Below, one piece after another: positions 3,773 to 46,984 of a stretch of DNA of 49,504 bases. The notes under the pieces were generated by a model, which was not told where the DNA came from, made no database searches, and was given only the letters and a program-made list of their open reading frames with translations. Position numbers and translations under genes: made by a program. How positions within the stretch are numbered: position 1 is the first letter of the stretch; every line of letters begins with the position of its first letter. Source of the DNA: Acidobacteriota bacterium (GTDB lineage: Bacteria; Acidobacteriota; Thermoanaerobaculia; Thermoanaerobaculales; Sulfomarinibacteraceae); contig JAJDNM010000147.1 in assembly GCA_022340665.1 (NCBI GenBank), positions 1-49,504 on the forward strand. The letters are read 5' to 3'.

Positions 3773-3808
3773 CGGAAGAGTTGTGCCAGGAACGAGGTTC
3801 GACGAAGC

Positions 3809-4474: not shown

Positions 4475-4492
4475 GGCGGGAGATCGCGGCAG

Positions 4493-7033: not shown

Positions 7034-8137
7034 ATGGTCCGCGCGGCCAGCAAGCTGCTGCTGGCGGTGACCGCTCTGGCGGTGACCTCGACGGTGATCG
7101 CTGAGGAGCCGCAGTGGCGGCAGGTGAGCGGCCCACCAGAGCTTTCCTTTCCCCGCGATCACGGTGCCCACTTCGAGTACCGCACCGAATGGTGGTACGT
7201 GACCGGGCTGGTGGCCGATGCGCAGCAGCGGCGCTACGGCTTTCAGATCACCTTCTTCCGCCAGGGCATCGAGCCCGGCGACCCGAGGCCCGACGAGTCG
7301 AGCCTGCGGGCGCGCCAGATCGTCGCCGCCCACCTCGCCATCGCCGACATCTCGGCGCAGCAATTCCACCACGCCGAGCGGCTGCGTCGTATCGCCGGCG
7401 GTCTCGCCGGTGCGTCGCAGACCCATCTCGAGGTGTGGCTCGAGGATTGGCGGATGGTGCGTGCAGACGACGGGTTGATCACCATGACGGCGCACGATCC
7501 CGAGCAGGGCATCGGCCTCGATCTCGAGCTGCGCCCGCAGCGCGGGCTGGTGCGCCACGGCGACCGTGGCTACTCGCGCAAGGGTGATGCGACTGGAAAT
7601 GCCTCGATCTATCTGAGCTGGACCAGGCTCCAAGTGGCCGGCGAAATCGAGGTTGAAGGCGCTCTACGGAAAGTGCAAGGCGCGGCATGGTTCGATCACG
7701 AATGGGGCACCTCCCAGCTCGGTGCTGGGGTGGTCGGCTGGGACTGGTTCAGCCTCCGGCTCGATGACGGACGCGATCTGATGCTCTATCGTCTGCGGCG
7801 CTCGGATGGAGGGGTCGACCCGCGCTCGTCGGGCACCGTGGTCGGCGCCGACGGCGTGGTCTCGATCCTCGTACCTAAGGATGTCGACATTGATGTTCTC
7901 AAACGATGGACGAGCCCCGCCACTGGTGCCCGCTATCCGATTCGGTGGCGGCTCCGGATCCCGGCCCACGATGTCGATTTGGACGTGCGTGCCCTGCTGG
8001 CCGACGCTGAGCTCGACGGCTCCGTCACAACCGGCGTCATCTACTGGGAGGGTCCGGTCGAGGCTGCGGGCACGCAGAATGGCGAAGGATACGTCGAGAT
8101 GACGGGATACGCCGGCACGCTCGAGGGTCTGTTTTGA
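7034..8137 (+). CDS. AttH/CrtC-type lipocalin-like protein, exported
   Basis: A 367-residue protein with an N-terminal signal segment (residues 1-23). The mature part has FPRDHGAHFEYRTEWWYVTG, a hallmark of the AttH/CrtC (carotenoid 1,2-hydratase-like) family, and further motifs GAAWFDHEWGTSQL and GWDWFSLRLDDG. The family has two lipocalin-like barrels, and carotenoid hydratases are one branch. Here the gene starts right after the permease stop (TGAATG), so a role as periplasmic partner of the ABC transporter is more likely than carotenoid synthesis; no carotenoid genes are nearby. The ligand is unknown. Confidence 0.88.
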   Translation: MVRAASKLLLAVTALAVTSTVIAEEPQWRQVSGPPELSFPRDHGAHFEYRTEWWYVTGLVADAQQRRYGFQITFFRQGIEPGDPRPDESSLRARQIVAAHLAIADISAQQFHHAERLRRIAGGLAGASQTHLEVWLEDWRMVRADDGLITMTAHDPEQGIGLDLELRPQRGLVRHGDRGYSRKGDATGNASIYLSWTRLQVAGEIEVEGALRKVQGAAWFDHEWGTSQLGAGVVGWDWFSLRLDDGRDLMLYRLRRSDGGVDPRSSGTVVGADGVVSILVPKDVDIDVLKRWTSPATGARYPIRWRLRIPAHDVDLDVRALLADAELDGSVTTGVIYWEGPVEAAGTQNGEGYVEMTGYAGTLEGLF

Positions 8138-8160
8138 GGGCATGATCCCAGGCCAGATGG

Positions 8161-9156
8161 TTAGACGCGATTCCTCAGCATCAGCTCGCGTGGGTGCGGT
8201 TCGAGGTAGAGCTGGCCCTGCATGTACACGATACCGTGTTTGGTGATGTGGTGGCGTAGCAGTGTGATCGGCACGATCAGCGGCACGAGCTCGTTGCGAT
8301 AGTCCTCGATCAGCGCCACCGCCTCCTGCTTTTCGAAGGGGTCGAGGACCTTTTTCAGATAACCCAGCACGTGGTAGAGCACGTTGGTGTGGCGCTTCCG
8401 TGTCGCCCGATTCTTGAGCACCGTGTGGAATTCATCCTCGTAGGCCTGAAAAAGCTCGGCATCCGGAATGGTGCCGGCGGAAGCGACGATCTTCCCCAGC
8501 CGACGATAGCCGGCCTCGTTGTGCGCCCGGAGCAGCAGCTTGTGCGCGGTGTGAAACTCGATCAGGCTGCGACGGCTCAGCCCGCGCCTGACCAGCATTC
8601 GCCAGCGGTGACGGCAGAAGACGTGTTCGATAAATCTCACCCGCAGCATCGCGTCGTTGAGGCGTCCCTCCTCCTCGACCGGCAGGTGGGGCCATTTCTC
8701 CATCAAGATGCGGGCGAAGACCCCGGCACCAGTCTTCAGCGGCATGCCGGCCTCGGTGTAGACCTTGACCCGCTCCATGCCACAGCTCGGGGAGGCGCGC
8801 TTGAGGATGTAGCCGTCGAGGTCCTTGGCCATCAACTCGTCGACCTTTTGATACGAGTAGGTCTCCATCCTTTCGGTCAGGTCTTCACCCGATTTCGGTT
8901 CCACGAGACGTGGGTTGTCGCCCCCCTCGACCAAACGGATGGTTGGCCGCGGCACGCCGAGGCCTATATCGAGCTCGGGACACACCGCCACCCACTGAAA
9001 CCACTCGCCGAGAACGTCGGTGAGGTAGCGATCGCGTTTATGACCGCCATCGAAGCGGACCTTGGCACCGAGGAGGCAAGACGAAATGCCGAGCCGGATC
9101 GGCTCGTCGTCGTGCCAGGGGCGCCACGAGGGTTCGGGTAAGTTGGCTTCATGCAT
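8161..9156 (-). CDS. DUF523-DUF1722 protein, probable tRNA 4-thiouridine desulfidase (RudS/YbgA type)
   Basis: A 331-residue fusion. Residues about 20-165 are a DUF523 domain with LGISSCLLG, CPELDIGLGVPR and ASPSCG, giving three conserved Cys (C27, C59, C125) that in the thiouracil desulfidase TudS hold a 4Fe-4S cluster. Residues about 190-325 are DUF1722 (YbgA-like; HTNVLYHVLGYLKK). From memory, such fusions (RudS) remove sulfur from 4-thiouridine in tRNA, the base that acts as a near-UV sensor; ybgA also neighbours the photolyase gene in E. coli. The position near the photolyase agrees with a UV role. No strong ribosome site is seen at the chosen ATG. Confidence 0.85.
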   Translation of the reverse strand: MHEANLPEPSWRPWHDDEPIRLGISSCLLGAKVRFDGGHKRDRYLTDVLGEWFQWVAVCPELDIGLGVPRPTIRLVEGGDNPRLVEPKSGEDLTERMETYSYQKVDELMAKDLDGYILKRASPSCGMERVKVYTEAGMPLKTGAGVFARILMEKWPHLPVEEEGRLNDAMLRVRFIEHVFCRHRWRMLVRRGLSRRSLIEFHTAHKLLLRAHNEAGYRRLGKIVASAGTIPDAELFQAYEDEFHTVLKNRATRKRHTNVLYHVLGYLKKVLDPFEKQEAVALIEDYRNELVPLIVPITLLRHHITKHGIVYMQGQLYLEPHPRELMLRNRV

Positions 9157-9224
9157 GACGCCATCATCGCATGGTCAGTTCAACAGCGAACGCTCGGGTA
9201 GCATGTGGCACGAGGAGGCACGCC

Positions 9225-10499
9225 ATGGGTGGACAGACGCGCAGGAGCTTTGCGACACGTGCGGCCGCAACCCTCAGCGGTGCTGCATTGCTGACAGCGG
9301 CTGGTCTCGAAACGACTTTGGCCGAGACGAAAGACCTGTTGACCTCGTCTTCAGCGGGGGATATCGGTACCGATTATTGGCGTCTGGTGCGACGTCAGTT
9401 CCGGCTTGATCCGGGGCTCGTCTATCTCAACAACGCCTCCCTTGGGCCGTCGCCGGCGTTGGTCGCGGACGCGACAGAGACCTTTCGTCGTACGCTCGAC
9501 GGTTTTCCGTCACGGTATATGTGGGGAGGCTGGTCAGACGAAAAAGAGACGGTCCGAGAGAAGGCGGCTGGGTTGCTTGGCGCCTCACCCGAGGAGATCG
9601 CCCTCATCCACAACACCACCGAGGGCATGAACCTCGTAGCCTCGAGCCTCGACCTCGAACCCGGAGACGAAATCATTCTCGCCGATCACGAGCACCCTTC
9701 CGGCACCATTCCATGGCAGTACTGGCAGGAACCGCAGGGCGTCAAGCTGGTGCGGCCAACGTTGCCAATTCTCCCCGATGATCCGGAAGAGATCGTTGAG
9801 GTATACCGCCGTTCGATCACGCCGCGCACCCGTGTGATTTCGATGTGCCACGTGGTCAACACCAACGGCATGATCCTACCGGTCAAAAGGGTGTCGGCGA
9901 TGGCGCGGAGGCATGGCATCCTGGTCGCCGTGGACGGAGCCCAGGCACCGGGTATGATTAACGTTGACCTCCACGACCTCGGCTGTGACTTCTATGCCGC
10001 TTCGGCCCACAAGTGGCTCTTTTCGCCGAAGGGGGTTGGTGTGTTCTTCGCGCGTAAGGCGAAGCAGCAGCTGCTCAAGCCGTTGATCGTCGCTCGTGGC
10101 TGGGAGGATGAATCGATCCGCCGCCTCGAGAACTACAACACCCGCAACCTGCCCGAGGTGCTCGGCCTCGGGGTCGCATTCGATTTCCAAAATCTCGTCG
10201 GGCCTGACCGGAGCCAAGCACAGATCCTCGCGCTCAAGAAGTTCTTCCGAAGGGCAATCAGGGATGATCCTGCTTTCAATATCAAGACGCCGTCGCTAGA
10301 CGAGCTCTCGGCCGGTATCACCACCGTCGAGGTCGTCAACCGTGAAGTTGTCGAGGTCGCGAAGCTGCTTGCCGAACGCCACCGCATCGACTGCCGGCCG
10401 ATGATGAGCCATGGACTCAATGGCCTTCGCATTTCTCTGTCGATCTTCAACAGTGAAGACGAGATCGATTTTCTGGTGAAAGCGCTACGCAGGATTTGA
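9225..10499 (+). CDS. Tat-exported class V aminotransferase-like PLP enzyme
   Basis: A 424-residue fold-type I PLP enzyme of the class V (cysteine desulfurase/isopenicillin-N epimerase-like) family. The signal carries twin Arg (TRRSF, R6-R7) and a moderate hydrophobic stretch, so Tat export of the folded holoenzyme is expected. YLNNASLGPSP (67-77) marks the domain start, D237 lies in VAVDGAQ, and the PLP lysine is K263 in SAHKW. The ATG at 9225 follows GAGGAGG by six bases; an earlier in-frame start would place a poor sequence before the Tat motif. The substrate is unknown; isopenicillin-N epimerase-like is a fold-level comparison only. Confidence 0.88.
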   Translation: MGGQTRRSFATRAAATLSGAALLTAAGLETTLAETKDLLTSSSAGDIGTDYWRLVRRQFRLDPGLVYLNNASLGPSPALVADATETFRRTLDGFPSRYMWGGWSDEKETVREKAAGLLGASPEEIALIHNTTEGMNLVASSLDLEPGDEIILADHEHPSGTIPWQYWQEPQGVKLVRPTLPILPDDPEEIVEVYRRSITPRTRVISMCHVVNTNGMILPVKRVSAMARRHGILVAVDGAQAPGMINVDLHDLGCDFYAASAHKWLFSPKGVGVFFARKAKQQLLKPLIVARGWEDESIRRLENYNTRNLPEVLGLGVAFDFQNLVGPDRSQAQILALKKFFRRAIRDDPAFNIKTPSLDELSAGITTVEVVNREVVEVAKLLAERHRIDCRPMMSHGLNGLRISLSIFNSEDEIDFLVKALRRI

Positions 10500-34682: not shown

Positions 34683-35641
34683 GACTCGATTTCGGCTTCT
34701 CGGATCGAACGGATGAAGACATCCTCGAGCGATGGCGACACGGGGCTCAGCTCAACTGGGGCAAAGCCCGCGGCGTCGAGCTGGTCGGCGATTGTCCGTC
34801 CCAATTCTGGCCGGTCGACAACCGCGTGGAGGTGATTCCCAAAGAGGGCCGCGTCGATCACGCCCGGAAGATTCTCGAGGTGCTCGAGGGCGCGGGGCGC
34901 GTCGCGGCACGCGATCTCGAGCACCGACCCGGAGGGGAAGATCTTCTTGAGCTGTGCGATAGTGTCGACCGCGAGCAGCTTCCCGGCGTGCATCAGGGCG
35001 ACGCGGTGACAGCGTTCGGCCTCGTCCATGTAGTGGGTGGTGACGAAGACCGTGACTCGCTCCGCCGAAAGGTCGTCGATCAGGTCCCAGAATCGGCGCC
35101 GCGCCTCCGGATCGACGCCGCCGGTCGGCTCGTCGAGGAATACCACAGGTGGGCGATGAAGAAGGGCGCACGAAAGGGCCAGCCGTTGCCGAAAGCCGCC
35201 GGGCAGATCGGCGACGATCGCATGGCGTCGTGACTCGAGTCCGGTGAGGTCGAGGGCCCATAGCCGTTGTTCGTCGTACTGCTTGCCCCAGAGCCCGTAC
35301 GTCCCGCCCCAGAAGCGGAGGTTCTCGTCCACCGTGAGGTCGCTGTAGAGCGAAAACTTCTGCGACATGTATCCGATGCGCATCTTGATCTCGGGCACCT
35401 GGGTATTGATATCGAATCCGGCCACCGTGCCCCGACCCTCAGTGGGTGCCAGCAGACCGCAAAGCATACGAATGACGGTGGTCTTTCCGGCGCCGTTGGA
35501 GCCGAGGAAGCCGAAGATTTCTCCTGGAGCGACCTCGAGGGAGACGTGGTCGACAGCTACGAAATCCCCGAAGTGGCGGGTCAGCCCATCTGCCGAGACC
35601 ATGATCTCGGGTTGGGCCGTGGCGGCGGAAGCCGTGGTCAC
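34679..35641 (-). CDS. ABC ATP-binding protein of drug-efflux pump (second half of YbhF-like pair)
   Basis: A 320-residue ATPase of the DrrA/YbhF class. Walker A is GSNGAGKTT, the signature reads LPGGFRQRLALS (a variant of LSGGQ), and Walker B/D-loop is PVVFLDEPTGGVDPEARR. A C-terminal domain of about 80 residues follows, as in DrrA proteins. The start is a GTG that overlaps the stop of the TolC-type gene. It pairs with the ATPase at 36960 to give two non-identical ATP sites. Confidence 0.93.
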   Translation of the reverse strand: MTTASAATAQPEIMVSADGLTRHFGDFVAVDHVSLEVAPGEIFGFLGSNGAGKTTVIRMLCGLLAPTEGRGTVAGFDINTQVPEIKMRIGYMSQKFSLYSDLTVDENLRFWGGTYGLWGKQYDEQRLWALDLTGLESRRHAIVADLPGGFRQRLALSCALLHRPPVVFLDEPTGGVDPEARRRFWDLIDDLSAERVTVFVTTHYMDEAERCHRVALMHAGKLLAVDTIAQLKKIFPSGSVLEIACRDAPRALEHLENLPGVIDAALFGNHLHAVVDRPELGRTIADQLDAAGFAPVELSPVSPSLEDVFIRSIREAEIES

Positions 35642-36969
35642 TGACCCACCGCCCGCAGGAGTGCCGCCTCGGCCATCCAGGCGCCAGCACGGGTCTTGAC
35701 CTGCGCAACCTCAGCGGCGCTCAGGTCGGCCTGGGCATCGAGTAGCTCGGACAGCATCGCCAGGCCGGCGGAGTATCGCTCACTCGACGCCTCCTCCCAG
35801 GCCACCGCGGCATCCGCCGCGGCGTCGGCCGATACAACCGCTTCAAGGGCCGACTCGAGTTGCAGGCGCGCGGTCGCAACCTCGAGGAGGATCTGGCGCT
35901 CGAGTTCGCCACGGTCATACTGGAGAGCGCGCTGTTCGGCGTGGACGGTGGCCACCTGTTCTCTGGTCCGACTTCCATCGAAGATCTGCCAACTGGCGCC
36001 GACACCGACTCGCCAGGAGTCGTTGACGACGTCCTCGAGGGGCAGGAAACGATGGTTGGGGCGCGCTACCAGCCATTGGCCAGTTGCGGCCACCGCCGGT
36101 TTTCGGTTCGAATTCACCGCCCGGGCCTGGACGCCGAGACCGTCAATTCGAGCATCGGTGATCCTGAGCTCGGGCCGATTCTCGAGGGCCGCGCGCTCGA
36201 GGTCGGCCAGAGCGCGTGGAGAGGCGGGAACGTGTTCGGTTCTGGCGTCTTTGAGAGTGATGAAAGCAACGGTCGTGTCGATTCCGAGCAGAGACCCGAG
36301 ACGCGCCAAGGCCTGCTTTTTTTCGTTTCGCGTCCGGATGAGATCGACCTCGGCTGCGGAATACCGTGCCTCGGCAGCAAACACATCGGCGTTAACTGCC
36401 ATACCTGCTGCGCGCAGGGCACGGGCGTCGTCGAGGAGACGCTGCGTGCGCGTGATCTGCGCCTCGGCGACGTCGACACCGGCCGCCGCCGCGACCGCGG
36501 CCCAGTAGAGCCTGCGCGCCTGGCTTGACAAATCGAGGGCAGTCAGCTTCTGCGACCACGTGGCTGCCGTCTCGTCGAACCGTGCGCCGTCGCGGCCTGC
36601 AGTAATCGCGCCGCCGGTGTAGATCGGCTGAGAAATCGACAGGTCGGCGCTGTACGTGTTCTCGATGCTTGGAAAGATCACAACCGGTGGCTCGGTAGGG
36701 CCGTTGATGGGTGCGGCAAACTCGGGGACGGAATTCTGCCGCTCGACTACCGCACTGATACTGACGACCGGCAAGCGGGCTGCGTCGGCGGCTTTGACCG
36801 AGGATTGTCGGGCCTCGACTCGCTCTTCAGCGGCGGATGTCAGCCTCGACGCCTCGATGGCCATCCTGGTTGCGGATTCGGCGTCGAGGGTCAGTGTTTC
36901 AACGCCGGCCGCATCCCCGGCGAGTGCGGTGACGGATGCCAGGATGAGGAAAGGGGTTTTCAGCTCCAT
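35638..36969 (-). CDS. TolC-family outer-membrane efflux channel
   Basis: A 443-residue protein with a signal peptide (LILASVTALAGDAAG). Two repeats of long coiled-coil helices carry typical OEP motifs: LDLSSQARRLYWAAVAAAAGVDVAEAQ and, later, GELERQILLEVATARLQLESALEAV. It forms the trimeric channel of the pump. GGAGG lies before the ATG at 36969, which overlaps the end of the ATPase gene by ten bases. A much longer open frame upstream is the ATPase gene read in another frame. Confidence 0.93.
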   Translation of the reverse strand: MELKTPFLILASVTALAGDAAGVETLTLDAESATRMAIEASRLTSAAEERVEARQSSVKAADAARLPVVSISAVVERQNSVPEFAAPINGPTEPPVVIFPSIENTYSADLSISQPIYTGGAITAGRDGARFDETAATWSQKLTALDLSSQARRLYWAAVAAAAGVDVAEAQITRTQRLLDDARALRAAGMAVNADVFAAEARYSAAEVDLIRTRNEKKQALARLGSLLGIDTTVAFITLKDARTEHVPASPRALADLERAALENRPELRITDARIDGLGVQARAVNSNRKPAVAATGQWLVARPNHRFLPLEDVVNDSWRVGVGASWQIFDGSRTREQVATVHAEQRALQYDRGELERQILLEVATARLQLESALEAVVSADAAADAAVAWEEASSERYSAGLAMLSELLDAQADLSAAEVAQVKTRAGAWMAEAALLRAVGQ

Positions 36970-37913
36970 GATGCCTCCGTTGCGTGACTGGCGGTCGCGG
37001 TCCGTGTGAGGTAGAGAAAGGTGTCCTCGAGACCGGCGGGGACCTCGCGGGTCGATTCGACGTCGATCTGCCTTCTGGCGAGCGCCTCGCGAATCGAGCC
37101 CCCGGGGTCGGTTGCTCCGACGAGGTGGGCGTGGAGAGTCGTTCCAAAGACGCTGACGTCGACGACCGAGTCCAGGGTTCTGAGGGCTTCGATTGCCGCT
37201 GCGCGAGGGCTCGCGGTGATCTCGATCACCGTGCCGGGCATCAGGTCGGGAATCTCCTGCGGTCGCGCGTCCGCGAGAATCGTGCCTTCGTGCATCAACA
37301 GCACTCGCGTGCACCGTTCGGCCTCGTCGAGGTACGGCGTGGCGATCAGGAGGGTCAATCCATCGCTCACGAGATCGGCGAGCAGTCGCCAGAACTCGCG
37401 TCGTGTCACCGGGTCAACGCCCGTCGTGGGCTCGTCGAGGAGTAGCGCGCGGGGTGAGTGGATGAGTGTGCAGGCGAGGGCCAGCTTCTGCTTCATGCCT
37501 CCGGAGAGGCGGTCGGCCAGGCGATCATGAAAGGGGGCCAGGCCGACCAGTTCGAGCAACTTTCGCCGGCGTGTCCGCCAATCGGGAACACCGTACATGA
37601 GGGCGAAGAATTGGATGTTCTCGTCTACGGTGAGGTCGCCGTAGAGGGCAAATCGCTGCGCGAGATAGCCGAGTCGAGTGTGGAGACTCCTTCGCTCGCG
37701 CCAGCAGTCTTCGCCAAATGCGGTCGCCGATCCGGAATCTGCTTGCAGCAGTCCTCCGAGGACGCGCAATGTGGAGGTCTTGCCGGCGCCGTCGGGACCG
37801 ATGAGGCCCACGACTTCGCCCGACCTCACCTCGAGGGATACACGGTGCACGGCCTCGTGGTTCCCGTAGCAGACCACCAGATCTCGCACCTCGAGCAGAG
37901 AGGCTGAGGTCAC
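36960..37913 (-). CDS. ABC ATP-binding protein of drug-efflux pump (first half of YbhF-like pair)
   Basis: A 317-residue ATPase starting with GTG. Walker A is GPDGAGKTS, the signature LSGGMKQKLALA, and Walker B LLLDEPTTGVDP, with a C-terminal extension that includes VPAGLEDTFLYLT. In E. coli YbhF the two ATPase halves are one protein; here they are separate genes with the channel gene between them. It starts nine bases before the adaptor gene's end. Confidence 0.93.
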   Translation of the reverse strand: MTSASLLEVRDLVVCYGNHEAVHRVSLEVRSGEVVGLIGPDGAGKTSTLRVLGGLLQADSGSATAFGEDCWRERRSLHTRLGYLAQRFALYGDLTVDENIQFFALMYGVPDWRTRRRKLLELVGLAPFHDRLADRLSGGMKQKLALACTLIHSPRALLLDEPTTGVDPVTRREFWRLLADLVSDGLTLLIATPYLDEAERCTRVLLMHEGTILADARPQEIPDLMPGTVIEITASPRAAAIEALRTLDSVVDVSVFGTTLHAHLVGATDPGGSIREALARRQIDVESTREVPAGLEDTFLYLTRTATASHATEASWS

Positions 37914-37922
37914 GCTGCCCTC

Positions 37923-38888
37923 TCAACCGAAGTAGGCGTCGGCTGGCATCCCGGGCTTGAAGATTCCCTTTGGATTGTCCAGTCGTACCTTGATCCGGAA
38001 GACCAGCTTGGCGCGCTCATCGGGAGTCTGGACGTTCTTGGGTGTGAACTCGGCCACCGACGAGATGAACGAAACGGCGCCTTCAAAGCTCTCGTCAGTT
38101 CCGTCGATGTGAACGGTCACTCTCTGGCCGAGCGTTACCTGTGAAAGGCTCGGCTCGTCGATCCAGACGGTCAGCCATGGCCGTCCGATGTCTGTGAGAA
38201 CCGCGATAGTGGCTCCTGGGGGGAGTACCTCGCCCGGCTCCGCGATCCGCGATGTAATGATGCCGTCCGATGGCGCAACGACGGTTGCATCAGAAATCTG
38301 CTGCTGGACCGCCGCCACCATCGCTTCCGCAGACGCGCGCTGAGCGCGGGCGGCCTCGATCTCCTGCCGGCGAGGTCCGGCTACCAGCTTGTCGAGCTGT
38401 GCCCTGGCCGCGGCGACGGAGCGTTCCGCAACCTCCAGACGAGTGGCGGCATCATCGCGTGACTTTTCGGTCGCCGTGCCTCGCTCGGCGAGGCCAGCGA
38501 GGCGGTCGAGATCACGGCGCGCCGCGTCGAGCTCGGCCTGAGACTGCGCAAGCTGATCCTCGGCCCGGCGGAGATCCTCGGCTCGGGTGCCGGCGAGCAG
38601 AAGGCGGAGCTGGGCATCAGCCGCCTCGGCGTTGGCCCGCGCCCGGGCCAGCTGATGCTCGGCGTCGATGGTCTCGATGCGGGCAACCAGGTCGCCGGTC
38701 GTCACGATGTCGCCCTCCTCGAGAGGAGCCTCGAGAAGCCGGCCGCCGATTTTTGACGCCAGGCGAACCTCGGTCGCCTCGATGTGGCCGGAGGCGTAAA
38801 TCGCCCCGTCGTTGTTGGTGTCTCGACATCCGACGGCAAGCAAAGAAGCTGCGAGCGCCGCAAGGTAGATGGAATTTTTTCGAGTCAT
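37923..38888 (-). CDS. HlyD/YbhG-type membrane-fusion lipoprotein
   Basis: A 321-residue periplasmic adaptor. The signal ends with lipobox LAVGC, so lipidation at C21 is likely. An N-terminal lipoyl half (IYASGHIEATEVRLASKIGGR) is followed by a long coiled coil (about 75-190), the second lipoyl half (DATVVAPSDGIITSRIAEPGEVL) and a beta domain. It connects the ABC-2 permeases to the TolC-type channel. Its start overlaps the TetR gene stop by four bases. Confidence 0.93.
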   Translation of the reverse strand: MTRKNSIYLAALAASLLAVGCRDTNNDGAIYASGHIEATEVRLASKIGGRLLEAPLEEGDIVTTGDLVARIETIDAEHQLARARANAEAADAQLRLLLAGTRAEDLRRAEDQLAQSQAELDAARRDLDRLAGLAERGTATEKSRDDAATRLEVAERSVAAARAQLDKLVAGPRRQEIEAARAQRASAEAMVAAVQQQISDATVVAPSDGIITSRIAEPGEVLPPGATIAVLTDIGRPWLTVWIDEPSLSQVTLGQRVTVHIDGTDESFEGAVSFISSVAEFTPKNVQTPDERAKLVFRIKVRLDNPKGIFKPGMPADAYFG

Positions 38889-39514
38889 GTAGATTCTCCA
38901 ATTCGCTCGATGGCAATGCCGTGGAGGAGGAGATCGGCGACGAACTCGCCCAGATCGGCGCCTTGAGGAAATTCGATTCCCGGATCGATTGTGGAAACCT
39001 GTTTTCGGAGGGGCGCGACGGCGCTGAGAAAAAGAGATGCGCCGACCAGTACGAGGTGTGTCATCACGGTGTCAGTGGCGCGGAATTCTCCGCGGCGAAC
39101 CCCGTCGGTCAACAGGTCTCGCACCGTTCCCAGTAGCCTCGCCATCCGCTCGAAAACCTCGGGCTGAAGGTACATACCGCCGGAGGCGAACTCCCGCAAC
39201 ATGATTCGTGGGTGGTCGGGAAGAGACTCCAGGGTCCGAGCCATGCCTGTGATCAGAGCTTGCAGCTGCTCGCGCGCGGAACCACCCATAACCAGAGTCC
39301 TGTTGAGCTCCTCCTCGATTCGATCGAAGTTGCGGCTCAGAACAGCGGCGTAAAGAGCCTGCTTGTTGCCAATGTGGTAGTAGAGCATGGCCTTGTTGAC
39401 GCCAGCTCGATGCGCAATCACGTCCACCCGTGCACCGGCAAAACCCTCATCGGCGAAGACGCTGGATGCGGCGTCGAGGATCTTTTGACGTGTCTGCGGT
39501 TGTCGTTCATTCAT
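38885..39514 (-). CDS. TetR-family repressor of the efflux operon (CecR/YbiH-like)
   Basis: A 209-residue TetR protein and first gene of the seven-gene operon. The HTH (ARVDVIAHRAGVNKAMLYYHIGNKQALY) is at about 25-52, and the C-terminal ligand domain resembles that of YbiH/CecR, which controls the ybh pump in E. coli. A perfect inverted repeat against its promoter (39528-39554) is its probable operator. Induction by the pump's substrate is inferred. Confidence 0.93.
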   Translation of the reverse strand: MNERQPQTRQKILDAASSVFADEGFAGARVDVIAHRAGVNKAMLYYHIGNKQALYAAVLSRNFDRIEEELNRTLVMGGSAREQLQALITGMARTLESLPDHPRIMLREFASGGMYLQPEVFERMARLLGTVRDLLTDGVRRGEFRATDTVMTHLVLVGASLFLSAVAPLRKQVSTIDPGIEFPQGADLGEFVADLLLHGIAIERIGEST

Positions 39515-39585: not shown

Positions 39586-39664
39586 CCTTTGATTTTCAGT
39601 TCTTCGAGAGTGGGAGCGAGATAGGGATAGGGAGCGCTTGGATGGTCCTGTAAACTCGAGACAA

Positions 39665-40993
39665 ATGAAGAAGAAAGTCCGGCAGGTGGTGACGCTGGCA
39701 CGGCGCTTTTCTTTCGGCGACGGCACGGATCGGAGTCTGCTCGAGCGTTTCCGCGAGAGATATGAAGAGCTCGCGTCGGAACAACGTCTCGAACTTTTCC
39801 ACTGGTTATCCGGGCAGTTCGAGGTTGGACTCGACACGCTCGAGGAACCGATGGCCAACCTTCGTAAGGCAACAGAAAACGATTGTGTCGCTTGGAATGA
39901 AAATGTGCGTGAGCTCAGAAAGGCGATCGCGTCGCCGAGGCAGCGTCTTTTGGAAGCCTTGATCAATACCACCGGCGGGATGGAGTTCGTGCTCGCGCTC
40001 CGCGCGGAGGTCATCGATGCTCAGCGATTGGGCGAAAAGGGGCTGGAGGCTCTCGAAGAAGACGTCGCGCATCTTCTCAACCGCTGGTGCCAGCATGGGC
40101 TCCTGTTCCTCGAGGAGATCGATCTCAGTGCGCCCTTCGAGACCATCCGATTTCTCAAGGAACGGGAGATGGTCCATCCCATGGTTGGTTTGGAGGAAAT
40201 GGGTCAGAGGCTCGGCGAGGACAGATTGTGCTTCGCCCTGTACCACGTCGCGATGCCCAAGGAACCGGTGGTCTTCATCGAGGTTGCCCTGAGCCGCGGA
40301 CTCATGGGTTCGATTCACGATGTCATAGATGACAGCGGTTCGGCGCGGGAACAAGTCAGTTCGCCCGACACGGCGATTTTTTACTCGATCAACAATACGC
40401 AGATCGGGCTTGCCGGCCTCGGCCTCGGCAAAGTGTTGATCATGCGTGTCACAGAGGCTCTCAGGGAGCGCCATCCGTCGCTCAAGACCTACGCCACCCT
40501 CAGCCCTATCCCGGGATTCTGGCCTCGTTACCTCCGTCCGATTCTCCAGGGCCGGGATGAGAAATTCGCCATCAAGCGAGCAGACGCCCTCAAGGTGTTT
40601 TCGGTCAAGTGCCAGGATGCGATCATCGGTCGACACAGCGAACTCGGAGGTGAGCCGGGGGATTTCGCGGAAATCTTGATTTCGGTGCTCGATCGATCAG
40701 ACTGGATCGACGATCCGGTCTTTCCTCAGCACCTGCGAAAGCCTTTGGGCGAGCTTGCCTTCACCTATATCGAACACGAGGAAGACCCGCGTGGCAGGCC
40801 GCTCAACCCCGTCGCCGGCTTTCACCTCGGAAATGGTGCGCGAGTGTCACGCAACAACGTCAATTTCGCCGCCAACACCTCCGAGCGTGGTCTCGGCGAA
40901 TCGTGCGGATTGATGGTCAACTATGTTTACTCGCAGAAGGCGCTGGCATCATTCGGTCGCGCCGTTCGATCACTCTTGCCATGGGGGAGATAA
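39665..40993 (+). CDS. Malonyl-CoA decarboxylase
   Basis: A 442-residue protein colinear with the MCD family. The N-terminal helical domain precedes HPMVGLEEMGQRLGEDRLCF (171-190), FYSINNTQIGLAGLGLG (239-255), TLSPIPGF with Ser280 (278-285), and NPVAGFHLGNGA with His387. The last two hold the Ser/His catalytic pair known from the human enzyme. It converts malonyl-CoA to acetyl-CoA, either to limit fatty-acid synthesis or to use malonate; no malonyl-CoA synthetase or matB-like gene is close. The ATG 39665 has a weak ribosome site; an in-frame TTG at 39638 is an alternative. Confidence 0.93.
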   Translation: MKKKVRQVVTLARRFSFGDGTDRSLLERFRERYEELASEQRLELFHWLSGQFEVGLDTLEEPMANLRKATENDCVAWNENVRELRKAIASPRQRLLEALINTTGGMEFVLALRAEVIDAQRLGEKGLEALEEDVAHLLNRWCQHGLLFLEEIDLSAPFETIRFLKEREMVHPMVGLEEMGQRLGEDRLCFALYHVAMPKEPVVFIEVALSRGLMGSIHDVIDDSGSAREQVSSPDTAIFYSINNTQIGLAGLGLGKVLIMRVTEALRERHPSLKTYATLSPIPGFWPRYLRPILQGRDEKFAIKRADALKVFSVKCQDAIIGRHSELGGEPGDFAEILISVLDRSDWIDDPVFPQHLRKPLGELAFTYIEHEEDPRGRPLNPVAGFHLGNGARVSRNNVNFAANTSERGLGESCGLMVNYVYSQKALASFGRAVRSLLPWGR

Positions 40994-41025: not shown

Positions 41026-41083
41026 TTGACGGATCGGCTCCGCTAATTTACATTATACTGAATAGTTCGACCATCTGGTCTAA
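41026..41083 (+). promoter_or_regulatory. Promoter and imperfect operator of the second TetR operon
   Basis: A -35 TTGACG (41026-41031) with TACATT at 17 bases; a better -10 sequence, TATACT (41054-41059), has a 22-base spacing. Downstream, an 18-bp imperfect palindrome (41066-41083) has a core of GACCA-TC-TGGTC. Its place after the start region suits repression by the TetR protein encoded next. Confidence 0.45.
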
Positions 41084-41137
41084 CCATGAGGTAAAACCTT
41101 TCGGTCGAGGATTCGTATGGGATTTTGAGGACACGAA

Positions 41138-41761
41138 ATGGCACGGCCCCGATTTGCAAATCTTGACGTCGATACCAGGTATCGCATACTCGAAACGGCG
41201 GCGATGGAGTTCGCATCGCGAGGCTACCAGGGTGTTTCGCTCAACCAACTTCTCGATCGCCTCGGGATGAGCAAGGGCTCGTTCTATTACTACTTCGACG
41301 ACAAGGCAGATCTTTTCAGTACCGTGGCCGATCTTGCCTGGGCCATCTTCCTGCCTATCGAGGAATTCGACCTCGAGGAATTCAATGCCGAGAACTTCTG
41401 GCCGAGCCTCGAAGCTCTGATGCGCGAGATGAGATCACGAATCCGTGCAAACCCCTGGCTGGTCGGTTTCACCCGTCTGATGTACAACCCGCCGGACATT
41501 CCCGGAGTGTTGGATGCGCTGTCGGAGAAGTTCGCAGAAGCCAGGCAGTGGCAAGCAGAGCTGATCGAACGTGGTCAGGCCGTCGGGACCGTGCGCGACG
41601 ATCTTCCGGCCGGACTGCTCCAGGCGTTGCTGGTCGGAGCGGATGAGGCCGGAGATCGCTGGGTGGTCGAAAACTGGGAGCGGCTGGGTGAGGTAGAGGT
41701 GGAACGGATCTTCGACCAGGTTTTTGGCATTTTTCGACGCATGCTGGAGTCGCCGCCGTAA
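41138..41761 (+). CDS. TetR-family regulator of the envelope transport operon
   Basis: A 207-residue TetR protein. The HTH at about 28-50 ends with GMSKGSFYYYFDDKADLF. The C-terminal domain is acidic and shows no known ligand motif. It starts 55 bases past the palindrome at 41066-41083 and lies 26 bases before the LolA-like gene, so it probably controls itself and the five genes behind it. Confidence 0.92.
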   Translation: MARPRFANLDVDTRYRILETAAMEFASRGYQGVSLNQLLDRLGMSKGSFYYYFDDKADLFSTVADLAWAIFLPIEEFDLEEFNAENFWPSLEALMREMRSRIRANPWLVGFTRLMYNPPDIPGVLDALSEKFAEARQWQAELIERGQAVGTVRDDLPAGLLQALLVGADEAGDRWVVENWERLGEVEVERIFDQVFGIFRRMLESPP

Positions 41762-41787
41762 TCGGAAGTTGGACAAGTGGAGTGAAT

Positions 41788-42543
41788 ATGATTCGCAAAG
41801 CAGTAGTGTGCGCCGCTCTGTCGATGGCTGGAATCACGGCCTCGATTGCGGGTGCCGAGGATGCGAAGGAGATCGTCCGCGCTGCGATCGACAACTGGCG
41901 CGGCGAATCCTCCTACGGTGAAATGTCCATGACGATTCACCGTCCTTCGTGGGAGCGAACGATGTCGATGCGGGCCTGGACTCTGGGAACCGCGAAAACC
42001 TTGGTGCGGATTACCGCGCCAAAGAAGGACGCTGGAAACGGCACGCTGACGGTCGGCGACAACATGTGGTCGTTCGCGCCAAAGGTCAATCGGGTGATCA
42101 AGATTCCGTCGTCGTTGATGGGCCAGAGCTGGATGGGTTCGGACTTTTCCAACAAAGATGTCTCGCGTGCCGACGACATAGTCGACCAGTACGATCACAC
42201 CTTGGTCGGCACCGAGGAATCAGATGGACACACCGTTCACGTGATCGAGGCAATCCCCCACGAAGAGGCGGCCGTGGTGTGGGGCAGAGAGGTCCTGCGG
42301 ATCCGCGACGACGATGTCCTTTTGTCGCAGGAGTACTACGACCAGGATGGCGTTCTGGTGAAAACTCTCCGTACACTCGAAATCGGAGTCATGGATGGGC
42401 GCACGATCGCTGTCCGCCAGAGGATGGCGAAGGCGGAAACCGAAGACGAGTGGACCGAGTTCCGCATCGACAGTGTGAAGTTCGGCGTCGAGATCGCCGA
42501 CAACGTGTTCACCCGCTCCAACCTTCGAAACCCGCGTGATTGA
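41788..42543 (+). CDS. LolA-like outer-membrane lipoprotein-sorting protein
   Basis: A 251-residue periplasmic protein: signal peptide (1-21, ending SIAGAE), then a LolA/LolB-type half-barrel. Typical features are TLVRITAPKKDAGNGTL, NMWSFAPKVNRVIKIP and SWMGSDFSNKDV, as in the PF17131-type family adjacent to permeases. Members carry lipid or lipoprotein through the periplasm. GGAG five bases before the ATG at 41788 favours this start over a GTG six bases earlier. The following genes encode two FtsX-type permeases, an ATPase and an outer-membrane protein. Confidence 0.9.
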   Translation: MIRKAVVCAALSMAGITASIAGAEDAKEIVRAAIDNWRGESSYGEMSMTIHRPSWERTMSMRAWTLGTAKTLVRITAPKKDAGNGTLTVGDNMWSFAPKVNRVIKIPSSLMGQSWMGSDFSNKDVSRADDIVDQYDHTLVGTEESDGHTVHVIEAIPHEEAAVVWGREVLRIRDDDVLLSQEYYDQDGVLVKTLRTLEIGVMDGRTIAVRQRMAKAETEDEWTEFRIDSVKFGVEIADNVFTRSNLRNPRD

Positions 42544-42546
42544 GCG

Positions 42547-43776
42547 ATGAACATTACGCTCAAGATGGCCTGGAGGAACCTCTGGAGACGCAAGCGCCGG
42601 ACCTGGCTGACGGTTGGTGCGATGGTCTTTTCCAATGTCCTTCTCGTATTCATGATCTCTCTCCAGGTCGGGATGTACGGGATGATGATCGACAACACCC
42701 TCCGGGCCCAGACCGGTCATCTCCAGGTACAGGCGCCCGGTTACATCGACGATCACAGGATGCGGCAGGTGGTACCGGAGGTGAAGAAGCTCGCCAACGA
42801 TCTGCGGCGTGGTCTCGCGAGCGACGGAGTGGCTGCGCGAGCCTCGGCGTTCGCCTTGATATCGAGTACCGACAGAAGCTACGGGCTGCAGATCACGGGT
42901 GTGGAGCCGGACTTCGAGCCCCGGGTCTCGAGCTTGCCCGGACTGGTCAAGGACGGCAGATTCCTCGATGACGACCTCGCCGAGGAAATCGTCATCGGTC
43001 GCGTGCTGGCGCGGAACCTCCAGGTCGGGGTGGGAGACGAACTGACCTTCATAGGCAACGGCCGAGACGGGTCCTTTGCAGCCGCGGTTGTGACCATCGT
43101 CGGTATCTTCGAGAGCGGCATGGAGGATCTTGACCGCAGCTTGGCCGAGGTGCCCCTCGGTTTCTTCGACGACGTCTTCGCGATGGACGGCGCGGGACAT
43201 GCGGTGGTCGTGATGGCCCCTGGTCTGATCCAGGTCGGTCAAACCCGCTCGAGGGTCGAGGCTCTCTTGCCAGAGGACTCGGGGCTCGTCGTTCACGACT
43301 GGGATGAACTTCTGCCGGGTCTCAAGCAGGCCATTCAGGCCGATTTCACGAGCGCTTGGTTCATGTATGGAATCCTGATCGTGCTGGTCGCATTCAGCGT
43401 TCTCAACACCCAGCTGATGTCAGTCCTCGAACGCACGAAGGAGTTTGGCATCATCATGGCCCTTGGTGTGAAGCCGGGCCGGCTCGGCCGATTGGTGCTG
43501 CTGGAATCCGGCCTCATGGGCACCGTCGGTCTGGTTCTGGGGGTAGTTCTGGGCGCTGCCCTGGTGCTCTGGCTCGGATACCACGGGTTCTCGTATCCAG
43601 GGATGGAGGAAATGGCCGGGAAGTTCAACCTCCCGAGCCGCGTCTATCCGCAGGTGTCGTTCGTAGGGCTGCTCTTGGGACCTGTAATCGTTTTCATCGC
43701 GAGCGTTGTTTCCACGCTTTACCCGGCGTTCAAACTTCACTTCGTCGAGCCGGTCAAGGCCATGAGGGCAGTCTGA
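42547..43776 (+). CDS. FtsX/LolC-E-type ABC permease, first of the pair
   Basis: A 409-residue permease. A basic N-terminus (MAWRNLWRRKRRTWLT) precedes helix 1 (about 21-41), a large periplasmic domain (about 45-270), and three C-terminal helices. RTKEFGIIMALGVKPGRLGRLVLLES is the coupling helix. It resembles LolC/LolE, which extract lipoproteins from the inner membrane. It starts three bases after the LolA-like stop and overlaps the next permease by one base. Confidence 0.93.
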   Translation: MNITLKMAWRNLWRRKRRTWLTVGAMVFSNVLLVFMISLQVGMYGMMIDNTLRAQTGHLQVQAPGYIDDHRMRQVVPEVKKLANDLRRGLASDGVAARASAFALISSTDRSYGLQITGVEPDFEPRVSSLPGLVKDGRFLDDDLAEEIVIGRVLARNLQVGVGDELTFIGNGRDGSFAAAVVTIVGIFESGMEDLDRSLAEVPLGFFDDVFAMDGAGHAVVVMAPGLIQVGQTRSRVEALLPEDSGLVVHDWDELLPGLKQAIQADFTSAWFMYGILIVLVAFSVLNTQLMSVLERTKEFGIIMALGVKPGRLGRLVLLESGLMGTVGLVLGVVLGAALVLWLGYHGFSYPGMEEMAGKFNLPSRVYPQVSFVGLLLGPVIVFIASVVSTLYPAFKLHFVEPVKAMRAV

Positions 43777-45005
43777 TGGGCAGGTTCAGAATCGTCTTCC
43801 GTCTCGCCTGGCGAAACCTGTGGCGAAATCACCGTCGCACGCTGATTATGCTGGCTGCGATCGCCGTCGGCGTGTGGGCGATGATATTCATGACGGCGTT
43901 GATGCGCGGCATGGTCGACAACATGGTCGAGGATGGCATCAGCGCAATTCCCGGCCACGTCCAGATCCACGACCCGAAATTCCGTGACGATCCAACGGTT
44001 TCGAATATGATCGCGCCACCGGACGAGAATCTGCTCCAGGTTCTGAACCGCCCGGAGGTCGTCGCATGGGCGACGCGAATACGGGTTCCGGCGGTGATCT
44101 CATCTGAACGTGATACTCGAAGCGTCACGCTGGTCGGTGTCGAACCCGAACGGGAGAGAGACATCAGCTTCGTTGCCGAAGACGTGACGGAGGGACGATT
44201 CCTGGAGTCACGCGACGACCGGGGCCTGGTCGTGGGCCGCAAACTCGTTGAAAAGCTGGAGACCGGCCTCGGCAAACGGGTCGTGATCATGACCCAGGAC
44301 CGGGAGAACGACATCGCCGACCGAGGCTTCCGCATCGTCGGCATTTTCGACTCCAAACTCGTACAGTTCGAAGAGGGGCTCGTGTTCAGCGGCGAGGGAG
44401 CGATACAGGATCTTCTCGGAGTGGGAGATGCGATCTCCGAGGTGGCGGTCCTGGGAACCGACTACCGTGACGTCGAGGGGCTGCGCCGGATGGTGGCCGA
44501 CGCGGCCGGGCCCGGGCTCGAGGTTCTGCCGTGGAACAAGCTCGATCCCTACCTCGGGTCAATGTTGGCCGTGATGGACGGCTTCGTCGTGGTGTGGATC
44601 GTGGTCGTATTTCTGGCGCTCTCGTTTGGCCTCGTCAACACCCTGGTCATGGCTGTCTTCGAGCGTGTGCGCGAGATCGGTCTGATGCTCGCGCTCGGGA
44701 TGACGCCACGCAGCATCCTCACCCAGATCCTGGCGGAGTCTTTCCTCCTGCTGGTCATCGGCCTGGCGGTCGGCAATCTGGCGGCATGGGCCACAATCGA
44801 ACCCCTCCAGGGGGGCATCGACGTCTCCATCGTCGGCGAGGGGATGGAGTACTTCGGCTCCTCGAGCGTCATCTATCCTGCGCTCTACCTGAAAGACGTC
44901 GTTCTCGCCAATGTCATCGTCATCGTGCTCGGATTTCTGGCCAGCCTGGCACCAGCCTGGCGGGCGTCGCAGCTGGACCCGGTGCGGGCCATTACGAGGG
45001 TGTGA
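43776..45005 (+). CDS. FtsX/LolC-E-type ABC permease, second of the pair
   Basis: A 409-residue permease of the same length and topology as its neighbour: RLAWRNLWRNHRRTLIML start, periplasmic domain, and C-terminal helices with VFERVREIGLMLALGMTPRSILTQIL. The ATG overlaps the previous stop (TGATG). The two may pair as a LolC/LolE-like heterodimer. They are only moderately similar in the periplasmic domain, so they may have different roles. Confidence 0.93.
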   Translation: MGRFRIVFRLAWRNLWRNHRRTLIMLAAIAVGVWAMIFMTALMRGMVDNMVEDGISAIPGHVQIHDPKFRDDPTVSNMIAPPDENLLQVLNRPEVVAWATRIRVPAVISSERDTRSVTLVGVEPERERDISFVAEDVTEGRFLESRDDRGLVVGRKLVEKLETGLGKRVVIMTQDRENDIADRGFRIVGIFDSKLVQFEEGLVFSGEGAIQDLLGVGDAISEVAVLGTDYRDVEGLRRMVADAAGPGLEVLPWNKLDPYLGSMLAVMDGFVVVWIVVVFLALSFGLVNTLVMAVFERVREIGLMLALGMTPRSILTQILAESFLLLVIGLAVGNLAAWATIEPLQGGIDVSIVGEGMEYFGSSSVIYPALYLKDVVLANVIVIVLGFLASLAPAWRASQLDPVRAITRV

Positions 45006-45007
45006 TC

Positions 45008-45700
45008 ATGAAAGCAGTACGCTGTGTAGACCTTTGCAAAACCTATCGTCAGGGGCAGGTAGAAGTCACCGGCCTGGACCATGTTCATCTCGAAATAGCC
45101 GACGGCGGATTTGTATGCCTGTCCGCTCCTTCAGGCGGCGGGAAGACAACCCTCCTCAACGCCATCGGAGGCCTCGACACCCCGGACAGCGGTCAGATCT
45201 GGCTCGCAGGCGATCGCATCGACAATCTGGGCAAGGGCGATCTGGCGGAGATGCGCCTCCATCGCATCGGGTTCGTCTTTCAGGCATACAACCTGATTCC
45301 GGTACTGACCGCGAGGGAAAACGTCGAGTTCGTGATGGAGGTCCAGGGCATCCGCGCCGAGGAACGTCGAGAGCGATCTCTGGCGATCCTGGAGGAGGTT
45401 GGCCTTGGCGGCCTCGAGAACCGCCGCCCCGCCGAGATGTCCGGTGGTCAACAGCAGCGGGTGGCGGTCGCCCGCGCTATCGTCTCCCGTCCGGCCCTGG
45501 TGCTCGCCGACGAACCGACTGCCAACCTCGACTCTCAGTCAGCCGACCAGTTGATGGAGCTCTTCGTCGAGCTCAACGAGAACCGCCGCACCACCTTCGT
45601 CATTGCGACCCACGACCGGCGCGTCATGGGGTACGCGCGGCGAGTGATTCGAATGCTCGACGGTCGCATCGTTGGGGACGAAGAACAGGAAGCCGCCTGA
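45008..45700 (+). CDS. LolD-like ABC ATP-binding protein
   Basis: A 230-residue ATPase. The Walker A motif reads APSGGGKT (40-47), with Ala instead of the first Gly. Q-loop VFQAYNLIPVLT, signature MSGGQQQRVAVARAI and Walker B LVLADEPTANLDS are normal. It starts two bases after the second permease and energises the two FtsX-type permeases. Confidence 0.95.
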   Translation: MKAVRCVDLCKTYRQGQVEVTGLDHVHLEIADGGFVCLSAPSGGGKTTLLNAIGGLDTPDSGQIWLAGDRIDNLGKGDLAEMRLHRIGFVFQAYNLIPVLTARENVEFVMEVQGIRAEERRERSLAILEEVGLGGLENRRPAEMSGGQQQRVAVARAIVSRPALVLADEPTANLDSQSADQLMELFVELNENRRTTFVIATHDRRVMGYARRVIRMLDGRIVGDEEQEAA

Positions 45701-45706
45701 AGGCCG

Positions 45707-46984
45707 GTGGTGAAACCTTCGCGACTCGGAATCGCGGTCATGATCGGATGCCTGATCGCATCGGCGGGAGTGGTCCGCGCGGGTGATACGGACTTCGATC
45801 TCAGTGGTCGCCTGAGTCCTCAGATCGCGGTCACGACCTATGCAGACGATAGTGCCTTCAACGACATCTTCGGTTCGAGTTCGGTTGATTCCTCGGTCGA
45901 CGGACGCCTGGTGTTTGACCTCCGGCGCGGTCGCTGGAGCCTCGACATCGACTATCAGCTGATCGGTCTGTACGCGGACCGCCTCGAGTTCACTCGAGGG
46001 CTCCCGGCAAATCTGGGGGCCCTCTTCCCCCATCTGCCGGACGATCGCACCCGACTTTTCGATCTAACTCACGTCTTCACCGACTCCGGGAAGACAGCGG
46101 TCCTTCACCGGCTCGATCGGCTCTCAGTGGGGTATACGTCCGACCGCGTGGTGGTGAAATTCGGCCGGCAGGCGATCACCTGGGGCAACGGTTTGATCTT
46201 CAACGTCATGGACATCTTCAATCCATTCGACCCGGCTGCGGTCGACAAGGAGTACAAGACCGGCGACGATCTGCTCTACGGGCAGTACCTGTTCTCGAAT
46301 GGCGACGACGCCCAGACCGTGATGGTCTTTCGTCGCGACCCTTTCACGGGGGATGTCGAGGCGGACCAGAGCTCGCTCGCCCTCAAGTACCACCACATGG
46401 CCTCGAGCAGCGAGTACGATGCCCTCATTACACAACATTTCGGGGATGCGCTCGCCGGGTTTGGTATGAATCAAAGTATCGGCGGGGCGGTGTGGCGTGG
46501 TGATGTGGTGCTCACCTTTACCGATGACGACACCGTTCTCTCACTGGTGACGAGTCTTTCGTACTCGTGGGTGTGGGGCGGCAGGAATTTCAGCGGCGCG
46601 GCCGAGTACTATGCCAACGGCTTCGGGCGTTCCGACGGTTGCTATTCCCTCATGTGTCTGACCGAGAACCCTGATCTGATCGCGCGCATTTCCCGCGGGG
46701 AGCTGTTCAACCTCGGGCGCCACTACCTGGGGCTCAGTGCCACGGTCGAGGTCACGCCGCTCTTCCAGGTGACTCCGAACGCCTTCGTCAACCTGACGGA
46801 TCCGAGTGCGCTGATCCAGGTGGTTTTCCAGAACGACCTTCGCGAGAACCTCCTGCTGTGGAGCGCGTTCAACCTGCCGGTCGGAGCCAACGGCACCGAG
46901 TTCGGCGGTGGCGCAACCGAGGTGCCCGGCGTGTACCTCTCCTCGGGTCCCGGCATCTCGGCGCAGCTCGTGTGGTACTGGTGA
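45707..46984 (+). CDS. Outer-membrane barrel protein of the envelope transport operon
   Basis: A 425-residue protein with a signal peptide (1-25, ending VVRAG). The body has many alternating strands, WGNGLIFNVMDIFNPFDPAAVDKEY in the middle, and an aromatic C-terminus (AQLVWYW) typical of barrels. The WGNG...NPFDP part resembles DUF1302-like or alginate-export-like barrels, a tentative comparison. Two adjacent GTG codons (45707, 45710) are possible starts. It follows the ATPase gene by six bases. It may be the outer-membrane acceptor or exit of the LolA-like transport system. Confidence 0.82.
   Translation: MVKPSRLGIAVMIGCLIASAGVVRAGDTDFDLSGRLSPQIAVTTYADDSAFNDIFGSSSVDSSVDGRLVFDLRRGRWSLDIDYQLIGLYADRLEFTRGLPANLGALFPHLPDDRTRLFDLTHVFTDSGKTAVLHRLDRLSVGYTSDRVVVKFGRQAITWGNGLIFNVMDIFNPFDPAAVDKEYKTGDDLLYGQYLFSNGDDAQTVMVFRRDPFTGDVEADQSSLALKYHHMASSSEYDALITQHFGDALAGFGMNQSIGGAVWRGDVVLTFTDDDTVLSLVTSLSYSWVWGGRNFSGAAEYYANGFGRSDGCYSLMCLTENPDLIARISRGELFNLGRHYLGLSATVEVTPLFQVTPNAFVNLTDPSALIQVVFQNDLRENLLLWSAFNLPVGANGTEFGGGATEVPGVYLSSGPGISAQLVWYW

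Follow-up and report, generated by a model that had tools for sequence, protein, structure and literature searches.

By what routes hydrophobic molecules arrive at the outer membrane, lipoproteins and lipopolysaccharide (LPS) aside, is still an open question. The locus analyzed here holds a complete candidate pathway in six adjacent genes: a motor, a carrier, and an outer membrane acceptor, plus a switch in this lineage. It lies at positions 41138 to 46984 of the window, by which we mean the whole stretch of 49,504 nucleotides from the Acidobacteriota bacterium GCA_022340665.1 (contig JAJDNM010000147.1). The original prediction, made from the letters alone, had read these genes as an inducible shuttle, apart from the housekeeping Lol system, for a lipid or a lipoprotein. 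Our own reading, held with moderate confidence, is that the operon encodes a trans-envelope pathway that is switched on by a ligand and is dedicated to one hydrophobic molecule, lipid-like or other.

Gene layout

All six open reading frames (ORFs) are found on the plus strand, in the order and with the tiny gaps that had been described:

41138-41761, plus strand, TetR-family regulator (TetR_N, PF00440, 1e-14), probable repressor of the operon
41788-42543, plus strand, LolA-like periplasmic carrier (PF17131 LolA_like, 4.7e-50, 170 bits against a cut-off of 30)
42547-43776, plus strand, permease 1 (P1; FtsX and MacB_PCD in Pfam; lolCE, 5.5e-26, in NCBIfam; P1 clade of the permease tree)
43776-45005, plus strand, permease 2 (P2; FtsX and MacB_PCD in Pfam; lolCE, 1.2e-37, in NCBIfam; P2 clade of the permease tree)
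45008-45700, plus strand, LolD-like ATP-binding cassette (ABC) ATPase (ABC_tran, 1.9e-30; TIGR02211, 7.4e-63, under its cut-off)
45707-46984, plus strand, outer membrane beta-barrel of 425 amino acids and about 18 strands (GTG start; AlphaFold model; signal peptide; C-terminal YW)

The intergenic distances are 26 bases between the TetR and carrier genes, with a GTGGAG resembling a ribosome-binding site, then 3 bases before P1, -1 between P1 and P2 (a one-base overlap, TGATG), 2 before the ATPase, and 6 before the barrel.

Conservation of the cassette

The carrier was searched over 84,980 species genomes. At least 587 places matched the pattern, and relatives are encoded at 576 of these; the best 80 were examined. 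The stretches fetched from relatives, labeled L plus a number, amount to 2.05 Mb. Among the best 80 matches, 54 loci had at least 5.2 kb of sequence downstream, and in 51 of them the carrier, two permeases, ATPase, and barrel follow each other on one strand in the same order. A separate search for the barrel covered 396 genomes of the phylum and located it in 61; the full cassette was seen in 15 of the 20 barrel-bearing regions fetched from the phylum. The gene order is thus conserved and includes the barrel as part of the unit. Since 51 of the 54 loci keep the five-gene order, the set is more than a chance neighborhood.

The hosts belong to Proteobacteria, Desulfobacterota, Myxococcota, Bdellovibrionota, and Acidobacteriota, and the matches listed include Woeseiaceae, Halieaceae, Shewanella, Hahella, and Paracoccaceae. 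The closest named cassette among these matches is that of a Thermoanaerobaculia metagenome-assembled genome (MAG), with a carrier 80% identical to ours, which places the window's genome in or near class Thermoanaerobaculia. Named isolates also carry the cassette (Shewanella schlegeliana, Parahaliea mediterranea, Kineobactrum sediminis, and Desulfobacter vibrioformis), which makes it directly testable by gene removal. The barrel was not found in the plasmids of PLSDB. Some loci vary in composition: a gammaproteobacterial cassette (L195, 9863-13592) has three permease genes rather than two, and two Desulfoluna loci (L184 and L187) have the carrier and both permeases, with the ATPase and the barrel undetected in the available downstream sequence.

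The regulator does not belong to this core. TetR_N occurs in 15 of the 85 immediate upstream neighbors of the cassette, so that TetR, predicted as a defining part, is an occasional partner outside the five genes. A Pfam tally of the first and second neighbors on both sides found no gene family that consistently accompanies the cassette; the counts include hemerythrin (7 of 88 downstream) and AI-2E transporters (5 of 62 second upstream). The malonyl-CoA decarboxylase at 39638-40993 (PF05292), which had been taken as a hint of a lipid cargo, stands beside no relative's cassette, not even in L096 or L098, the loci of the same family, and we rejected it as a chance neighbor.

Separation from the housekeeping Lol system

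Both permeases have the FtsX C-terminal and MacB_PCD periplasmic domains and are paired with a separate ATPase, as is found in Type VII ABC transporters (FtsX/MacB). Against the TIGR02212 lolCE cut-off of 362 bits, P1 and P2 score 91 and 130, although this cut-off alone is indecisive, the genome's own best LolC/E also falling below it (171 bits). The ATPase scores 212 bits against the TIGR02211 LolD cut-off of 308, is 41% identical to Escherichia coli LolD, and carries Walker A (SGGGKTTLL), signature (MSGGQQQR), Walker B (LVLADEP), and H-loop (ATHD) motifs.

In the permease tree, the cassette permeases all stand in a group of their own, apart from E. coli LolC and LolE, which are joined by proteins encoded on two other contigs of the same genome, C12 and C128 (100/99). 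The label "LolCDE-like" is therefore not supported as family membership. Within the cassette group, each lineage has its P1 in one clade and its P2 in another. Judged from this tree, P1 and P2 appear to be an old pair of their own line, related to LolC/E yet outside it, and the two paralogous clades point to an old heterodimer.

The genome holds a Lol set elsewhere. The LolC/E-like proteins of C12 and C128 score higher against E. coli LolC than against P1 or P2, a LolA proper (PF03548) is encoded on contig C123, and on C128 the gene order is lysyl-tRNA-synthetase-type (lysS), lolC-like, lolD-like, ClpC-type, and Omp85/BamA-type. The original prediction was to be overturned if this set were the genome's only Lol system, which it is not, and the proposed distinction from housekeeping Lol is supported.

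Carrier and barrel

By eye, the carrier has an ordinary signal peptide and no lipobox. Its AlphaFold (AF2) model (predicted local distance difference test [pLDDT] score, 87) matches four solved PF17131 structures (9tp6, 4z48, 3buu, and 3bk5) at Z 24.6 to 26.3, including Porphyromonas gingivalis LolA3 (26.3), DESPIG_00262 (25.7), and NE2245 (24.6), but true LolA or LolB at Z of about 11 to 14 only, true LolA itself lying at about 11 to 13. It has no match to PF03548. By profile and modeled fold, the carrier is a PF17131 member. In its β2-β3 loop, model residues 67 to 69 are Gly-Thr-Ala, of which the Gly alone is invariant, and neither the alignment nor the model places a conserved arginine in this loop, where LolA has one. 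P. gingivalis LolA3 likewise has neither the arginine of LolA nor the leucine of LolB; its binding to LolB is only weak, and it was judged separate in function (PMC13103446). Further members of PF17131 from this bacterial class directly adjoin an MMPL protein (L100 to L108). As the family stands there beside MMPL and here with an ABC transporter, it would serve two kinds of motor.

The barrel has a plain signal peptide (by eye), no lipobox, and a Tyr-Trp end, and it matches no Pfam family above cut-off. In its AF2 model (pLDDT 88), a barrel of about 18 strands starts near residue 28, and a separate periplasmic domain is absent. Foldseek and VIA-align were run on the model; the latter gave Z 23.3 to a BenF-like porin and 22 to 23 to OprD/Occ porins and AlgE. 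The OprD/Occ and AlgE matches cover about 290 to 320 residues at 6 to 11% identity, so that the fold alone is common to them. No meaningful sequence-level homologue with a solved structure was found. The barrel is thus modeled as an intact 18-strand channel of the OprD/AlgE type. No match to the Omp85 family was obtained, at E values up to 1, for this barrel or its 16 relatives.

A GRQ..WG motif is common to the cassette barrel and DUF1302 (PF06980, cut-off 23.2 bits). The window's barrel scores 15.3 bits, below this threshold, and related cassette barrels score 19.6 to 23.7. An hhalign comparison aligned 53 columns with a probability of 46%. The match is local and, for the window's barrel, subthreshold; it does not amount to clear DUF1302 membership, and a distant common origin of the two kinds of barrel is plausible.

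Probable TetR switch and putative operators

Upstream of the TetR gene, a putative promoter is followed by two boxes:

41026-41054, plus strand, sigma-70-like promoter TTGACG-17-TACATT (consensus scan, 9/12), just upstream of the operators
41066-41083, unstranded, operator box 1, TTCGACCATCTGGTCTAA, with the core GACCnnnnGGTC at 41069-41080; the palindrome flagged in the original prediction
41095-41106, unstranded, operator box 2, AACCTTTCGGTC, its center 26 bp from that of box 1

The promoter scan gave 3 matches in the region against 1.3 expected by chance; by eye, the related locus L096 has TTGACA-17-TAAGTT at the corresponding place. The palindrome is real: TTCGACCATCTGGTCTAA matches once in the window, where 0.08 matches would be expected, and the second box follows it. 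L096 and L098 have both boxes with equal 26-bp spacing and the same AACCAT between them, upstream of orthologous TetR genes, and a relaxed two-box pattern matches only the window and these two places within the 2.05 Mb of fetched loci. TetR orthologues stand first in the cassettes of L096 (326 bits), L098 (306), and L120 (173), the last with a GACCGATTGGTC box before the gene.

A TetR_N domain with a palindromic putative operator near a promoter is what a TetR regulator presents, and boxes just downstream of the promoter fit autorepression. The predicted TetR control is therefore supported for the operon in this lineage, where the dual operator is conserved in three species, and not as a general feature of the cassette. 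In another locus of the family (L099, genome G105), GACCGACTGGTC is found at 8343, just before a TetR gene, though this TetR is hardly similar to ours. In the cassette tree, built from four joined core proteins, L099 belongs to another branch, beside a Halieaceae row (support 84). The operator type may thus be common to TetR genes of different descent.

Proposed pathway and alternative explanations

From the genes and their order, the predicted folds, and the operator sequence, we infer that the parts assemble into one pathway, that it runs outward, that its cargo is lipid-like, and that TetR represses it. The Type VII ABC transporter (P1-P2-ATPase) would extract a lipid or other amphiphile from the inner membrane. 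The soluble PF17131 carrier would take this cargo into its hydrophobic half-barrel, cross the periplasm, and deliver it to the 18-strand barrel, which would occupy the place of LolB and either insert the cargo into the outer membrane or pass it to the surface. TetR, bound to the two operator boxes, would repress its own gene and the operon until an inducer binds. Transporters of Type VII do their work at the periplasmic face, typically with no passage of substrate across the membrane (PMC12646458).

We favor a lipid or amphiphile over a lipoprotein because neither a LolB-like lipoprotein nor a cargo lipoprotein was seen accompanying the cassette in the neighbor tallies and because the carrier is without the LolA arginine; a lipoprotein cargo is possible and not favored. 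Two points weigh against this pathway. The barrel model is as near to substrate-specific uptake porins as to exporters, OprD/Occ and AlgE being tied in Z, and this tie leaves room for inward transport. Furthermore, the genes adjacent to the cassette in relatives yield no consistent metabolic clue in the Pfam tally.

An inducible second lipoprotein sorter would differ mainly in its cargo: P1-P2-ATPase would extract particular triacylated lipoproteins, the carrier would transport them, and the barrel would insert or expose them. The best NCBIfam matches (lolCE for the permeases and LolD for the ATPase) and the LolA superfamily fold of the carrier model agree with this, and LolB is absent from many bacteria, so that another acceptor is conceivable. 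We nevertheless hold it to be unlikely, given permeases outside the LolC/E clade, a carrier loop in which the LolA arginine is missing as it is in P. gingivalis LolA3 (PMC13103446), and the lack of any lipoprotein gene seen with the cassette.

In efflux operons it is typical for a TetR to regulate its own gene through a dual operator, an arrangement predicted here as well. The operon might then encode a relative of MacAB-TolC, bridged by a LolA-like protein, that rids the inner membrane of toxic amphiphiles (bile salts, antimicrobial lipids, or solvents). Two further observations are in line with this: the cassette appears to be mobile, and AmeABCD of Castellaniella is an efflux set, for a monoterpene, with a DUF1302 barrel, a DUF1329 LolA-like carrier, and a resistance-nodulation-division (RND) protein (PMC6394551). 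However, most relatives have no TetR next to their cassette, and neither an HlyD/MacA-type adaptor nor a TolC-type duct is present in the window's cassette (Pfam) or in the gene order of its relatives, which makes such a pump rather unlikely.

An uptake system, in which the barrel would admit a hydrophobic or amphiphilic nutrient, the carrier would cross the periplasm, and the ABC transporter would load it into the inner membrane or clear it from there, seems quite improbable to us. It accords with the OprD/Occ-type barrel model and with the DUF1302/DUF1329 set of Pseudomonas putida (PP_0765/0766 with PP_2018/2019), possibly related, which is required for growth on Tween 20 (PMC10866462). It agrees poorly with a Type VII motor working on the periplasmic side, typically without moving substrates across the membrane (PMC12646458), and no catabolic genes are linked to the cassette across relatives. 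That the operon is the housekeeping Lol system itself is extremely improbable and was rejected: its component types do match LolA, LolC/E, and LolD, but the genome has the lysS-lolC-lolD-clpC-bamA locus, a further LolC/E, and a PF03548 LolA elsewhere, and the cassette's carrier has no match in the genus's four other, incomplete genomes.

Relation to known systems

The pathway that we favor is of a kind already known from Lol, the DUF1302/DUF1329/RND sets, and a proposal for Borrelia. With LolABCDE of E. coli the cassette shares a Type VII ABC transporter with two FtsX-type permeases, a LolD-like ATPase, and a LolA superfamily carrier. It differs in having a PF17131 rather than a PF03548 carrier, permease clades outside LolC/E, TetR control, and an 18-strand barrel in place of the lipoprotein LolB, which is absent from the cassette. 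The permeases are of the FtsX/MacB_PCD type found in MacAB-TolC, but here they are paired with a carrier and a barrel.

The DUF1302-DUF1329-YCF48-MMPL/RND sets likewise combine an outer membrane barrel, a LolA superfamily carrier, and an energized inner membrane protein, and experiments have tied them to hydrophobic substrates (PMC6394551, PMC10866462). Their motor is RND/MMPL, whereas here it is a Type VII ABC transporter, and the barrels share the GRQ..WG stretch only. The genome has a complete set of this kind (L215, C8:20000-30207, at 3450-10201 on the minus strand), so that RND- and ABC-powered LolA-like/barrel systems appear, from their gene content, to coexist in it. This suggests a modular rule, in which a LolA superfamily carrier can work with either kind of motor, RND/MMPL or Type VII ABC, and an outer membrane barrel closes the path.

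In Borrelia, BBJ23-BBJ29 were predicted to form an exporter with a MacB/LolE-like ABC transporter, a LolA-like protein, and an outer membrane barrel, for which a non-polar ligand was proposed (PMC13078400). The same three elements are clustered here, but the Borrelia system has an Omp85 family barrel, a homodimeric permease, and tetratricopeptide repeat (TPR) chaperones, while the cassette has two distinct permeases, an OprD/AlgE-type barrel, and no TPR proteins. In Bacteroidetes, operons of TetR, ABC, MMPL, and "outer membrane lipoprotein-sorting protein" genes (PG1175-81 and Prevotella intermedia) are induced 13- to 136-fold in low iron (PMC10434189). They resemble the window's operon in joining TetR and a protein annotated like its carrier in one inducible operon, and they differ by their MMPL motor and additional ABC genes.

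Relatives have thus been described, and we found no paper describing this cassette in the full-text literature, a search outside which most subscription journals fall. As a tentative proposal, Lol, Lpt, and Mla/Mce might be joined by a further, widespread and undescribed class of lipid pathway across the envelope, represented by the cassette. Its Type VII ABC transporter would extract a particular amphiphile, its PF17131 carrier would pass this on, and its 18-strand barrel would accept it and place it in the outer membrane or on the cell surface.

Evolutionary history

In the four-protein tree, the cassettes of the window, L116, L096, L117, and L120 nest in an otherwise proteobacterial clade, whose enclosing branches have starred supports of 97 to 100, and lie at a great distance from most other cassettes of Acidobacteriota. 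Forcing the two Acidobacteriota groups together was rejected (approximately unbiased test, p-AU 4.5e-9), the groups having been named after the tree was seen. The position of the window's group inside the proteobacterial clade points to transfer, and the donors of this lineage's cassette were probably Gammaproteobacteria-like. At an E value of 1e-15, none of the genus's four other genomes (65 to 86% complete) showed the carrier. A misbinned contig is argued against by RtcB, which is encoded on the same contig and shares 87% identity with the RtcB of G110, a genome of the same genus, and 81% with that of G097, a genome of the same family, and by the close cassettes of several independent Thermoanaerobaculia MAGs; the contig is probably binned correctly.

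Other genes of the window

A short-chain fatty acid transporter gene (PF02667, 47006-48418, minus strand) is convergent with the barrel gene and has no match in the same four incomplete genomes. A further Type VII ABC transporter is encoded on the same contig: an 846-amino-acid protein with two FtsX domains and one MacB_PCD domain (4493-7033), preceded by a LolD-like ATPase (L016, 760-1425). On the minus strand (35638-39514), a second TetR operon adjoins the malonyl-CoA decarboxylase gene, with a TetR gene (38885-39514), an HlyD-like gene (37923-38888, by eye), and an outer membrane efflux protein (OEP)/TolC-type gene (35638-37314).

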